Shown here piece after piece: positions 33,611 to 55,625 of a stretch of 64,000 nucleotides of DNA. A program made the position numbers and the translations under genes. The stretch is taken from NCBI GenBank assembly GCA_023375675.1, contig JALQBC010000052.1:124960-188959 (forward strand), given 5' to 3'. Below the pieces are notes generated by a model. That model ran no database searches. It saw nothing but the letters and a program-made list of their open reading frames with translations, and had not been told where the DNA came from. Positions within the stretch are counted from its first letter, which is position 1. Every line of letters starts with the position of its first letter. The stretch comes from Cytospora piceicola (taxonomy: Eukaryota > Ascomycota > Sordariomycetes > Diaporthales > Cytosporaceae).

Positions 33611-35211
33611 ACTGGGGCTGGCTTGTAGAGAAACTGTGTTTCAAGAGAGCTACGTGATTTCAGAGTCTGTTGGTAATTAGATAAAGTAGACTAGTCTATC
33701 CAAGTACATACTTAAGTATAAAGTTATATGCTTGAGGGAAATGTTGACCCTTATCAACAGTGTCCATTCCTTTCAAGAGTCACCTCATATCAATCTCTCG
33801 TAGTGAAGCCCGGGACATATCTCATTTGGAAGCAGTCACCCCGCGGTCTTTCCAAACAACGAACTGATCAAATGTACCCACATCGAACCGATATGACACG
33901 AGTTGTAACAGACTCCCTAACCTGCTACCTCTATGGCGAGCATCTCTCGAGCACGTGAGCATGAGCAGTGGCGTATTTCGCTTCGGACTGATGAAAACTC
34001 CCCCTACAAAACAACGCAGACAGCCCAATTACCACACAACAAGTCTTGGTCGGCTGGGTGACAATGAATAAAAGAACCCTGGAGTTCAGCTCTCATTGAA
34101 TACAAGAGAGGCTATATAGGCACAGAGGTCATGGTAGGTAGCCATCATGTGCTTTACAATGGCTGTTATTCGATGTCTATCTCAGACTTTCACTGTGAGA
34201 TTCAAAACGGTCCGGTGCATGGTTGTGAACGTAGTCCCCGTGATGACGATCTTTTTGACCAAGTCCTCATCGGTGGTGAGGCTAGTTCTCAAAGGTTTCT
34301 TATACGTGGGAGACGGTTTGAGACCGGGAAAGCGAGTGTGCAAGATTTCCAAGCTCCCGGAGGAGCTGTTGGCGATGGGTGTCGGGGCATGACCATTTTT
34401 TACCATGTACTGAAACGGCAGAAGAGACACAGACGATCTGGGTTACATGAAGGATCGTGAACGATATGCACAATGCTGTAAAGAGGACTATAAGTATCCG
34501 CAGGGCTATACCCGGACAATTTGAAAGCTTTCCGGGCTCGCTCTTGCCGGGAAGGAAAAAGGACGGAAATGAGGATAAATAGACATAGGCGCAGGAACAC
34601 CCGAAGATCAACTACGAGGACTCGCCTGGGCGGGGACGAATAATGTGATGCCATATCTGGTCATGCCGGAGTCTCAGCCGGCGCTCCCAGGCATAGGGGA
34701 TGAGTAAGGATGATCCACGCCTACATGTCACCGATGCTCGTGGATCATCGCTCGTTCATGTCATAAATAATGTCTTCCAAGGTTGTTTTTGATTTGCCAT
34801 AGCTACCACACGAGAAATTGCAATCACCCATTAATCAGACCCCCATCGGCCCCGGGGGACACCCCCTGGCCCCTATCAGACTTAGTCCTCCATAAGCTTC
34901 ATTACCAAGTACCGGACTTGGGTGGGATGACGATCGAATTGAAGCAAAAGTACTGAGAAGATAATACAGCAAACCGGACCGGACCCTCCTGGTATCTTTG
35001 ACTGCTCCTTGCTCCGCCGCCAAGGGTGAATTGCCGGTCCACAGGTACAACGCCCCACCCCCCCCCCTTCCCCGCGCTTCAATTCTAATTGTAGTTGTAA
35101 AAATATGATGAGGGTAACAATGCCAGAAGTCTAGAGCAAATACACATTAAGGTTATTCTCCCGGCAGCAATGATACCTCAGGATCGTGCCCGTTGCCTCA
35201 ACTGCCAAGAC
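33611..35211. other. intergenic stretch
   Basis: 1.6 kb without a supported gene. Open frames at 34131-34654 overlap on both strands. TACTTAAGTA palindrome at 33709-33718. A C-rich run lies near 35054-35066. Confidence 0.45.
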
Positions 35212-50255: not shown

Positions 50256-52206
50256 TCAAGAATCGTCAGACAGCAGCTCCACATCTTCCATCCCATCATC
50301 TGCTTCGCAGGCTTTGATGGCTTGCCAGTACTCGTCAATGAGGCGCCGGCAGTTGGCCAGGTTCTTCACGGGCTCCCATGTACTGCGAGGCGACCCTTCC
50401 CTCCACTGGACTTTGTATTTTTTATCTTCCGGATTGTAGTCCACAATATTCTCGGCATCATACTCCGAAGATGACTCCCGCGACCGGTCATTCGCCGCAT
50501 TGTAGCCGTAACGCAATCGAAGTTGATCTCCGAAATCAGTCGGCGGTATGGGCCTCACGTTGAAGTCAGGCCAGCGGGGGAGGTTGTTCTGGGGAGGTTC
50601 GACAATCGGCGAGCGACCCTTGCGGTATGGATCCGAGGCATGTCGCCGAAGCCGTCGTCGAGGGTGGTCTCGGCGATGCGTTCCTTCGGACGCGGGCAAG
50701 GGTGGCGAAGGATCAGCGGCGGCATCTTCAACTGTCGCATCGGTATTGGCAGTAGCAGTGGCGGCGTTGTCGTCGTCGTCTTCTTGGTTGACAGTCACGG
50801 AACTATCGTAGGTTTCATCGTCGTACCCATCATCAACGATCTCATCTTCGTATTCGCAATCATCTTGGGTATTCTGGGCGTTTCCCGCGACTCTGCTGCT
50901 ATCATCGAAGATCCGCAGTCGTGGCCGCTGGCCTTCGGTAAACCACTCTCGAGACTTCCATTCGATGAGAAGACCAGCCTTCTTGTGAAGAAGCCGCAGG
51001 AACTAGAAAGGCGTGTTATTCATGTGCTGCAGGGGGACAGGTATTATAGTATACTCACATTGATACAAGATGGACACGGTTTGTGGTCCAACTCGATCAG
51101 GGTCTCCCTCAGCCTTGTAGGCAACTGAGGCGAGATCTCCTTCAGTCTCGCGATATTTTCCACAGTGACTTCGTCGGTGTCCAAGGCTTCAGCGAGCGCT
51201 TCCCTCAACACCCAAGCTCCCAGCTGCTTTTCGGCATGGCAACGGAAGAATGCGCCCGTTTTAAGCCTCGGTTCCCCGGACCATCGCTATTAAAATATCG
51301 TTATCAGTACTAGTTCTGTCGTAGTTGTGGAATGAAGAAGTCATAGAAACCTACGTAGTCAAGCCTGTGACCTCCAAGCGTAAACCCGTATATACTACAG
51401 ATACGGTGGACGAGACCTGTGTAGGACTTGTTGCAAAGGACGTCTTCACCCTTGACGCCAGCCCAGCCTGAAATCGCGAACTTGGAGATTTTGACCTCGT
51501 TCTTTCCGCGGATGATTCCACTGCTCTTGCGGCCTAGAACAATGTTGACTTCAGTTGCTCCGAGACGTCGGAGCTCCGCTACTTCGAGATGTTTGCCGCA
51601 TCGTAAAAATACTAGGCGGGGAAGGGGCGTGTCTGTTGGTGGCGTTTCTGCTGGTGGCGTTTCTGCTGGTGGTGTGTCTGCTGATGGCGTGTCTGCTGAT
51701 GGCGTGTCTGCTGACGGCGTGTCTTGGAGGACGGTCCCCGGGGGGCGCAAGTTCCTCGAACGTAGTATATTTGAGCGACGTCGGGGCCGTGAGGTCTTGT
51801 TGGCATATTTCAGAATTTTCAGCGAGTACTGAATAGTGTTTTGCCCACTTAGGCAAGGGCCGGCCGTAGCGATTCCTTGGTACCTAAGAATGAGGTCGCG
51901 AGTAAACGCGCCCTGGATGTAGTCTATGACAGGATGGCCTTGATGATCTCTGCTTTCCAAGGCAGCCCCGTTCTTCAACAGGTATTGGAAGATCTCGGCC
52001 CGACCGAAGAGAGTAGCCAGCATTAACGGCGTGGTACCCGTTGATGACCGGGCGTTTACTCCCAGCTCGCGCGACCGGAGCAGGGCGCGGACCTTCTGAT
52101 GATCATTTTCGAGTACGGCCGCGTGGAGAGCTGTAAGGCCGTCAGGGAGGGCTGCCTCCATCGCCATCGCATTGTTGCTACCAGCTACACGTGGCTGGTC
52201 AGCCAT
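50256..52206 (-). CDS. ankyrin-repeat / deaminase-like / chromodomain protein
   Basis: Three exons joined in phase: 52206-51355, 51286-51059, 51002-50256; 608 residues. Residues about 20-110 are ankyrin repeats (GLTALHAAVLENDHQKVRAL; GTTPLMLATLFGRAEIFQYL). Residues about 160-195 are a DTPSA-type pentapeptide repeat. Exon 2 holds RTGAF-like sequence then FFRCHAEKQLGAWVL (His301, Glu303) and, 50 residues on, HKPCPSC (Cys355, Cys358). HAE plus PCxxC is the zinc-binding, catalytic signature of the cytidine-deaminase fold, and FLRLLHKKAGLLIEW after it fits the next strand-helix. After an acidic linker, residues about 541-587 form a chromodomain (YDAENIVDYNPEDKKYKVQW, then STWEPVKNL and LIDEYWQ) of the histone-methyl-lysine reader kind. 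Nuclear location is inferred. The deaminase subfamily (SsdA-like, DYW-like or other) and substrate are unknown. Confidence 0.85.
51626..51715. repeat. 15-bp coding minisatellite
   Basis: Six 15-bp units of the GGCGTGTCTGCTGAT type inside exon 1 of the ankyrin-deaminase gene, encoding the DTPSA/ETPPA pentapeptide repeats. A seventh partial unit follows. Because it is a multiple of three, copy-number change would alter linker length without breaking the frame. Confidence 0.92.
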
Positions 52207-52920: not shown

Positions 52921-54528
52921 TTATCGGCCAATATACTTCAGCTCGAGGTACCTCAGAGGCACATACAAGACCAAGGTGAAGCCAAAGGCCAGCTCGTTCG
53001 CCAGGTCACCACCCGCACTCCCTACCAACTTGCCCAGTGGCCCAGTGAACCAGGTCTCGACCATCCCAAGCACCCAGCCGACAACCCCCACGAGGAACGC
53101 CACCAGCGCAGCGAGACCAATAGGCAGTCGCTTGGGGTCGTTCCAGCCTTCGAGGTCGTAGTTGTCGGCGGAGCCCTTACGGAATATGTAATGCTCGCAC
53201 CAGACGATCACGAAGAACGACGTGGCCCAGTACCCGAGCAGCGACAGGAAGTTCTGCAGATAGGCGTTCAGGTGCTCCCTTCCTCCGGCAGCGATTCCAA
53301 AGGTGATACCAAACAGAACCAGCGTCCAGACAAACCGAGGGACGCGGGCCAGAGGTCGCGCAAACTGTTGCACGGAGAGCGCGCAACTGTACAGGTTGAT
53401 GCAGTTCATACCGATTCCTGAAAGTACGAGGACCACAAGGACGAACTTGGCGAAGCCACGAGGGTAGAGCATCTTCTGGATCAGGAACCCGACGCCCTGG
53501 TCATTGTAAATATCCGCCAGGGCTGGCTCGGCGCCCATGGACGATCCGATGCAGCATCCGAGGACCATACCCACACAGGTCGAAAGGCCGATGCCCATAG
53601 TGGTCAAAGTGAAGATCTTGAGCTTGGAGCTATATTATTATCAGATTAGTAACAAACCAAGGTCTTCTGCGAAGAAGACATACGTATTGCGCGGGTGGAG
53701 GACATAAAAGTCAGCCGCGATGGTCGCCCACGAGACCGAGGAGCCGTACACAATCGCCAGCAGTGACAGCACGTTGCCGCTCAGGTCCGTCCCCTTCAAG
53801 GTGCTTTTGGTATGGATATCTGCCCGCGGTGCCATCTCCCCATACATAACCATAAAGAGCACAAAGAAGATGGCCCAGGCGTACTTCTGGTACTCCAAAA
53901 TAGCACGGAGACCACAGAAGTTCAGGACGGAACTGCAGACAGCGACGATGACGATGCCCACGATGGACGAGACCTTGCCGTTGGACACGGCCGAGAGGGC
54001 AGAGCCGGCCGTGATGCAGCCCACGGCACTCCATCCGATCTGGGAGATAACATTGAGAAACGCCACGATCTTGGCGGGGTACCAGCCGAAGCTGTACCGC
54101 GCCAGACTCATCTCGCGCAGACCCATGGGGCCCATGGTGGCGCAGAATCCGGCGACCATGGCCCCGAGGAGCGTGCCAAAGATGGTGATGGGGATGGTCT
54201 GGCTCAGGTCCAAGCCGAGCTCCCATCCCAGGAAGCCCGTCGACATGCACGACACGTTCATAGTGGCGCCCGCCCACAGCAGGGCCATGGTCGCCTGCTG
54301 GTGCCACGACTGCGGCTTCTGTTCCTCGGGCAGGACGCGCTGAATGGCTTGCGACTCGATGCCCAGCTTGCGATCCAGGGCGGCCTCGAGGATGAGGAGC
54401 CTGTCGAGGATGCCGGTACCCTTAGCGTGGGAGGTTTCATGGACCGAGGCGTTCTCCGACGATGATGACTCGGTGGTCTTCGCCGCCACCGCCACGTGGT
54501 CGAGCTGCTTCTCTTCGTCGTGAACCAT
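52921..54528 (-). CDS. NCS1 purine-cytosine permease (Fcy2-like)
   Basis: Proton-coupled nucleobase importer of the plasma membrane. Exons 54528-53684 and 53629-52921 with a 54 bp intron; 517 residues in phase, about 12 membrane segments. The cytosolic N-terminus ends in GIESQAIQRVLPEEQ, then comes helix 1 with WAGATMNVSCMSTGFLGWEL, the helix 2-4 motif GFCATMGPMGLREMSLARYS, FGWYPAKIVAFLNVISQIGW, SWATIAADFYV and, after the intron, FTLTTMGIGLSTC, then GIGMNCINLYSCALSVQQF. These are hallmarks of the Fcy2 branch (cytosine, adenine, guanine, hypoxanthine) rather than the uracil/allantoin branch, though substrate range cannot be read from sequence alone. The same strand carries the deaminase-like gene 714 bp downstream; co-operation between the two is speculation. 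Confidence 0.93.
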
Positions 54529-55625
54529 TTTGGCTTGGTGATTCCGCCGTGTCGATGTATGCGCTGGCGTTAATTATGCGATCTCCCCCCGGGCTGGGGA
54601 GAGAAAGAAAAAAGGAAGGAGAAGAAAGAAAAGAAGTCAAAGAGCAGTTCGACTGTTGCGGCGACATCTTTAAATTTTTCTTTAGTGCGGTGGGGGTGCA
54701 TGGCGTTGCAATCAGACGTCGTCCGTTACTCGCGTTATCGCCGTACGTAAGTGCTAGCTTTGCATTTCTCCTTCCAGACGTGGATCTGCGGCCCACATTT
54801 CCAGGGACAGAATACCAGGAATACTGATCCTGCTGGATAAGGCCATACTGTTTACCCAGTAGTAGATACTGGTAGATATATATATATGGGTAATCAGACT
54901 GCATATCAGGCGTGGCGACATGTCTCAAACGTTACATCGTTTATCAGTCACAAATCCTGCAAACCGTAATCATGTAACATGTAAGAGCAATCAAGAGAGC
55001 CGCATGCTGATGAAGTCCAGATGTCGTTGGGAGTCCGTCCATATTGCCTCGCCATATCAAGGGTCCATCCAGCCCTTTTGATGCTCATACTGGGCGCATC
55101 CCCCCCCCCTATGCTCTTTTTTCCTCCGGATGTCCAACACCAACCAGCTCACCACCACAGCGTGACGGGTAACGGAAAATATTCCAAGACAATGATCCAG
55201 ACTCTAGTTTTCATAGTGGATATCTGCATCTGGCATATCGTTGTCTCTCACCCTCGCATGCTCCATTCATCTGTGACTCTGAGCTGACCCAAGCTTGCGA
55301 TGTCGACTCACATGCCCGTGGAGGGTCGGTCACCAGGCATACGGCAGCCCTCATGACCGAATGATCAGTCTCAGCTGCCAGGTATCCACTCCGTCAGTTT
55401 CAACGGTCTTAAAAGGACAAATAAATCCTTTCTATCCTCCTGGAGGAAAACACTTAAGCCATGTTATTAGCATTCTTTCGTGTATTAACTCAACCGCGCA
55501 AAATTTAGCCCCCACCCTCCTCCCTTTTCTTTCATGGCAAGCGGAGCACAACAATATCGGAACAGTGAAATCAACAAGCAGCAGACCTCAAGACTCTGGG
55601 CGGACAACTTGATACGTATTCAACT
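54529..55625. other. divergent intergenic spacer
   Basis: 1.1 kb upstream of the permease and of the next plus-strand gene. Purine-rich tract at about 54600-54640 (permease leader). No other gene supported. Confidence 0.5.

Follow-up and report, generated by a model that had tools for sequence, protein, structure and literature searches.

The 64,000-nt window analysed here (contig JALQBC010000052.1, positions 124,960–188,959, of Cytospora piceicola assembly GCA_023375675.1) carries a minus-strand gene (52206-50256) from which removal of two phase-0 introns (68 and 56 nt) gives a single frame of 608 amino acids (aa) plus stop. The predicted protein joins ankyrin repeats, an SsdA-like deaminase core and a C-terminal chromodomain, each matched by Pfam above its curated cut-off (Table 1). 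It would be a nuclear, chromatin-tethered enzyme of the SsdA-like (BaDTF2-type) group, a zinc-dependent deaminase acting on cytosine in single-stranded DNA (ssDNA), a joint statement to which we give a probability of roughly 0.45. In the proposed mechanism an enzyme of the SsdA-like branch of the DYW-like deaminases would work in the nucleus, with zinc held by His301, Cys355 and Cys358 while Glu303 shuttles protons; cytosine of ssDNA would be taken by the SGW loop together with the HAE/CPSC site. Another protein would be bound through the ankyrin repeats, and the chromodomain would anchor the enzyme on chromatin. In this way uracil would arise in a selected part of the fungus’s genome, with defence against repeats or controlled mutagenesis as the likeliest purpose. 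AID/APOBEC deaminases likewise deaminate cytosine in a polynucleotide. The present protein would work alike, although SsdA is placed on another branch, in the C-terminal hairpin division of deaminases, in a passage of PMC7901873.

The two short in-phase introns and the 608-residue frame of the first-pass annotation, which had been made from the letters of the window, hold in the exon coordinates of Table 1 and in homology across both junctions. Enumeration of intron pairs (chosen donor ranges, intron length of 45-130 nt allowed) gave 36 with frames of more than 500 aa, among which the 608-aa frame is the longest and its splice sites were judged the most canonical; with 36 such pairs, the open frame alone is weak evidence for the gene model. 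Exon 1 alone matches SsdA_C with 24.1 bits (profile positions 2-39) and exon 2 alone with 16.1 bits (42-55), both below the cut-off of 27, whereas the spliced protein reaches 43.4 bits (2-55; 45.7 bits for the domain). The exon 2/3 junction is crossed by the alignment with a second SsdA-like copy in the genome (see below), which runs on into the first part of exon 3, the expected place of the fold's final helix and strand. Methionine is absent from exon 2 and occurs once in exon 3 (residue 598, C-terminal to the chromodomain), leaving the chromodomain without a separate start codon in this frame. Homology across both junctions, taken with the lack of methionine ahead of the chromodomain in exons 2 and 3, makes it very likely that the fusion of deaminase and chromodomain is real as one protein. 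With codon usage learned from two genes nearby, the proposed frame scores above both alternative same-strand frames in every exon, but in exon 3 one opposite-strand frame is slightly higher (-0.038 vs -0.078), and codon usage was given little weight in consequence.

The SsdA-like character of the core, suggested in the first-pass annotation together with its HAE and PCPSC signature and the three-domain architecture, is borne out by the SsdA_C score and by the motifs. These occur as SGW (246-248), HAE (301-303) and CPSC (355-358), the published order of SGW, HAE and CxxC, and motif alignment finds the putative zinc ligands His301, Cys355 and Cys358 and the putative catalytic Glu303 all intact. 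The hallmarks listed in a passage of PMC11789416 are HAE, CxDC and SGW. According to the part of PMC7901873 dealing with the DYW group, BaDTF2 toxins such as SsdA carry the SGW motif near the active site, SGW is unique to BaDTF2 within the group, and RNA-editing DYW proteins are marked instead by PG and CxC motifs and by DYW at the terminus; the deamination context of SsdA is given there as 5′-YCY (Y, pyrimidine). By its SGW motif this protein would be closer to the SsdA/BaDTF2 group, which acts on ssDNA, than to the RNA editors of DYW type. DYW_deaminase (PF14432) has no match to the spliced protein at E up to 1, nor in an exon-by-exon search at the same limit of the 43.6-Mb genome that the profile searches covered, and OTT_1508 (PF14441) is not among the matches to this protein. 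PADLOC and NCBIfam have no match to the deaminase core (for exon 1, NCBIfam returns 11 matches, all far below cut-offs and mostly to ankyrin-protein models), and the Pfam matches of the protein include neither a toxin trafficking domain nor any chromatin domain beyond Chromo.

Placement near SsdA/BaDTF2 thus follows from the Pfam profile and the motifs; CxDC, one of the sequence hallmarks, and the link to toxins are lacking. Compared with SsdA itself (the BaDTF2 interbacterial toxin domain of P. syringae; PDB 7JTU), the protein is alike in the SsdA_C profile and in the order of SGW, HAE and CxxC, but it is encoded by an intron-bearing fungal gene, carries ankyrin repeats and a chromodomain, and has no association with an interbacterial toxin system. 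It is not a BaDTF2 toxin proper, although it most likely works like SsdA.

The chromodomain scores 28.2 bits against Chromo (PF00385; cut-off 25.1), and its best sequence relatives in the PDB are Clr4 (1g6z; 9.5e-5) and CDYL2 (2.2e-4). It shares a YKVQW...TWEP core with Clr4, CDYL2 and HP1-type readers. For the chromodomain piece, which is contiguous, AlphaFold predicted two strands and one helix with a predicted local distance difference test score (pLDDT) of 56.8, too poor for a fold search. Compared with ten other chromodomain places in the genome (significance from 300 shuffles), it is closest to L028, a 154-aa open frame (score 78; 21/64 alignment columns identical; reached by 0/300 shuffles). 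Another place (L027) is at background (123/300), as are two copies mutated by repeat-induced point mutation (RIP), L035 and L036 (score 26 each; 69 and 48 of 300 shuffles), while a third such copy, L037, scores 35 (4/300). Derivation of the chromodomain from a RIP-mutated retroelement is not supported by these scores, which do not cleanly exclude it; the retroelement copies are heavily mutated and the comparison is accordingly biased against them. Two Arg-rich stretches, at residues 140 and 469, could be nuclear signals.

Several observations weigh against a working, chromatin-directed SsdA-like enzyme. The published CxDC is CPSC here, with both cysteines kept and Asp replaced by Ser, so that this SsdA/BaDTF2 hallmark is lacking. 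The spacing from His to the first Cys is 54 residues (H301-C355), and 58 in the second genomic copy, against 21 in 7JTU (from the printed alignment), a longer stretch in both fungal copies. A phmmer search of the PDB with the deaminase domain did not find 7JTU, its two matches in all at E up to 10 being unrelated uteroglobin fusions (0.0088 and 0.048). Single-sequence fold prediction of the exon-2 fragment alone was all helical (pLDDT 67.9), without the strands that a deaminase core needs, and was likewise judged too poor for a fold search. The methyl-lysine cage, which we take to consist of three aromatics, is matched at two positions by Tyr541 and Trp560, whereas Gly563 stands in place of the third aromatic in the alignment with L028, a difference from Clr4, CDYL2 and HP1-type readers. 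Chromatin targeting, as the first-pass annotation had it, is plausible, while methyl-lysine reading is doubtful with one of the three usual cage aromatics missing; the domain may bind chromatin otherwise, or nucleic acid.

Table 1 Features of the ankyrin-deaminase-chromodomain gene (positions in the window; residues of the 608-aa protein).
Feature	Position	Strand	Details
Exon 1	52206-51355	minus	residues 1-284: ankyrin repeats, basic stretch, repeat linker, start of deaminase core including SGW 246-248
Intron 1	51354-51287	minus	68 nt, GTAGGT...TAATAG; spanned by SsdA_C profile
Exon 2	51286-51059	minus	residues 285-360: HAE 301-303, PCPSC 354-358
Intron 2	51058-51003	minus	56 nt, GTGAGT...TTCTAG; spanned by second-copy alignment
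Exon 3	51002-50256	minus	residues 361-608 and stop: predicted last helix/strand of deaminase core, acidic and basic linker, chromodomain
Ankyrin repeats	51946..52146	minus	residues 21-87, Pfam Ank_2 3.8e-11
SsdA_C	residues 244-306	minus	Pfam 5.3e-11
Chromodomain	50322..50444	minus	residues 547-587, Pfam Chromo 1.9e-6
15-bp minisatellite	51626..51724		6.6 copies, TRF score 142; encodes Pro/Thr/Asp/Glu-rich linker before deaminase core

These features may be read in other ways. A conflict effector derived from a toxin is an unlikely but serious alternative: a genotoxic deaminase would be held inactive by the ankyrin part until cell death, nonself recognition or antagonism sets it free, and the chromodomain would aim it at chromatin or mimic chromatin. 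Such an origin would suit a domain family best known as a toxin and a fusion that is single in this genome; a passage of PMC3482391 ranks deaminases, after nucleases, as the commonest nucleic-acid-targeting toxin domains of polymorphic toxin systems. It is opposed by the neighbourhood, where no immunity or NLR-type (nucleotide-binding, leucine-rich repeat) Pfam match was found in the 12 open reading frames (ORFs) scanned (positions 34000 to 64000 hold 20 neighbouring ORFs with a length of 190 aa or more, of which the other eight overlap other ORFs). Rather improbable is a chromatin scaffold in which a deaminase fold without catalytic activity has been taken over to bind nucleic acid or protein; the change from CxDC to CPSC, the long insertion between HAE and CPSC and the incomplete chromodomain cage would all fit it, but the putative ligands (His and two Cys) and the catalytic Glu are all intact, something seldom expected of an inactive enzyme.

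There is a slim chance that the protein is a C-to-U RNA editor akin to the PPR-DYW (pentatricopeptide repeat) proteins of plants and protists, with ankyrin repeats replacing the PPRs. Plant PPR-DYW editors do share the HxE...CxxC core, and a passage of PMC11789416 cites two references whose titles present them as plant PPR-DYW work; however, SGW, the mark of BaDTF2, is present, whereas the marks of RNA editors are PG, CxC and a DYW terminus (PMC7901873, same part), PF14432 matches neither the protein nor the genome, and a chromodomain is ill-suited to an organellar enzyme. A chance union of two genes, or an error in the gene model, is barely credible: the 36 intron pairs leave room for it in a model built from sequence, but homology crosses both junctions and no methionine lies in either exon 2 or the part of exon 3 ahead of the chromodomain. 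The chromatin-tethered ssDNA deaminase set out above is the reading followed below.

SsdA_C matches two places in the genome, this gene and C21:358332, where an in-frame TGA lies within the match, so that the second copy may be disrupted or may have an intron there. The two cores align through CHAEKQL and CPxC with 27% identity over 99 columns (E 4e-7, single comparison). The second core (1525-1872 in locus L004, the C21:358332 region) has CHAEKQL and CPDC, a TGA upstream in frame and a weak OTT_1508 match (21.9 bits; cut-off 27), and is possibly a pseudogene. Against 7JTU it aligns at HAEKQ and CTDC with E 0.52, as the second of two matches behind a spore coat protein at 0.35, and a two-sequence profile built from both cores puts 7JTU first of ten matches (E 0.73), none of them significant. 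By sequence the connection to 7JTU is weak. The same two-sequence alignment gave 73 pattern matches over a collection of genome contigs and 26 over viral contigs, with 0 confirmed in either set, and tblastn of the second copy found nothing in plasmids. No second copy of the fusion occurs among the 25 genome matches, the remainder being mostly ankyrin. Three OTT_1508-like deaminase matches are also present in the genome (C47:64001-68263, C79:1073673), two of which lie no more than 5 kb apart, as are two matches to the uracil-DNA glycosylase (UDG) family, which could process uracil.

Three repeat copies that bear chromodomains (L035, C52:82812; L036, C55:49457; L037, C12:179148) have a strong RIP signature, with TpA/ApT of 1.60-1.65, (CpA+TpG)/(ApC+GpT) of 0.12-0.14 and GC of 0.21-0.24. 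The window, with TpA/ApT of 0.75 and GC of 0.52, looks like ordinary gene-bearing sequence and not like mutated repeat. DNA_methylase matches lie at 8 places in 5 regions of the genome. Two DNA-methyltransferase-like genes (L040, 1486-2949, and L041, 934-2901), which we take to resemble RID, differ in having PPCQ in the former and PNLQ in the latter, and L041 may be without the catalytic cysteine.

For the sequence context of repeat mutation, this one chromodomain-bearing, RIP-mutated repeat family was counted (at least 64 matches, 30 of them taken as loci with 1500-base flanks, some alignments extending past the query repeat). All-pairs comparison of the 30 loci gave 781 alignments of at least 400 columns, in which neighbouring loci may overlap; disjoint pairs use each locus once, and since the copies share history the pairs are not fully independent. 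Outside CpA, the fraction of C/T differences was 0.672 at YCY vs 0.360 at RCY (R, purine) in the 781 alignments and 0.678 vs 0.380 (~1.8-fold) in 15 disjoint pairs; it was 0.641 vs 0.360 where three flanking bases on each side were identical, and 0.662 vs 0.356 in the first count, made on 22/30 loci. CpG gave lower values with the same 5′ effect (0.163 at YCG vs 0.057 at RCG; disjoint pairs). The transversion control was also higher at YCY (0.161 vs 0.098 in disjoint pairs; 0.095 vs 0.060 with three matching flanking bases). C-to-T loss of 0.51 at YCY and 0.23 at RCY would be expected to raise the transversion odds 1.57-fold, and 1.78-fold was seen, so that the scarcity of C at YCY explains most, not all, of the rise.

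The YCY excess matches the published SsdA context and is suggestive in that respect, but ultraviolet (UV) dipyrimidine mutation, or a 5′ preference of RIP itself, fits it equally well; the passage of PMC7296669 on RIP gives no 5′ context. The first-pass annotation had linked the gene to genome defence such as RIP. That link is circumstantial: the RIP signature, the DNA-methyltransferase matches and the YCY excess in mutated repeats speak for it, while nothing so far ties the signature to this gene beyond agreement in context, which is suggestive and no more. That a chromatin-tethered SsdA-like deaminase acts as a second mutator of fungal heterochromatin beside RIP, with its own 5′-YCY C-to-T signature in repeats, is a far-fetched proposal. 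If true, it would account for the CpT-to-TpT changes in RIP-affected repeats that a passage of the RIPCAL paper (PMC2621366) reports with uncertain relation to RIP.

In the window, the adjoining Pfam-matched genes encode MDM10 on one side and a member of the cytosine/purine permease family on the other, with a ribosomal protein S19e gene nearby. The permease family gene (53641-54573, minus strand; Pfam 1.2e-14) stands next to a putative cytosine deaminase probably by coincidence. The minisatellite unit in exon 1 is a multiple of three in length, and the length of the array is likely to vary between strains.

Fusion of fungal DYW-like deaminases to ankyrin repeats is stated in a passage of PMC11789416, and the proteins described there are like this one in their ankyrin repeats and DYW-like core, the difference being the C-terminal chromodomain here. 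Term searches of the literature, outside whose scope most subscription papers and preprints lie, found no report of a chromodomain fusion. By the literature searched, what is new is therefore the joining of a chromodomain to an ankyrin-SsdA-like deaminase, the ankyrin-deaminase fusion being already known. To our knowledge, the question of which enzymes deaminate DNA in fungal repeat mutation is not settled. With an SsdA-type core and a chromatin-binding domain combined, this fungal protein is a tangible candidate for a DNA deaminase directed to chromatin, and a natural fusion of deaminase and chromodomain is of interest to base-editing work. If the enzyme is active, knockout would directly test whether any repeat mutation signature depends on this gene.
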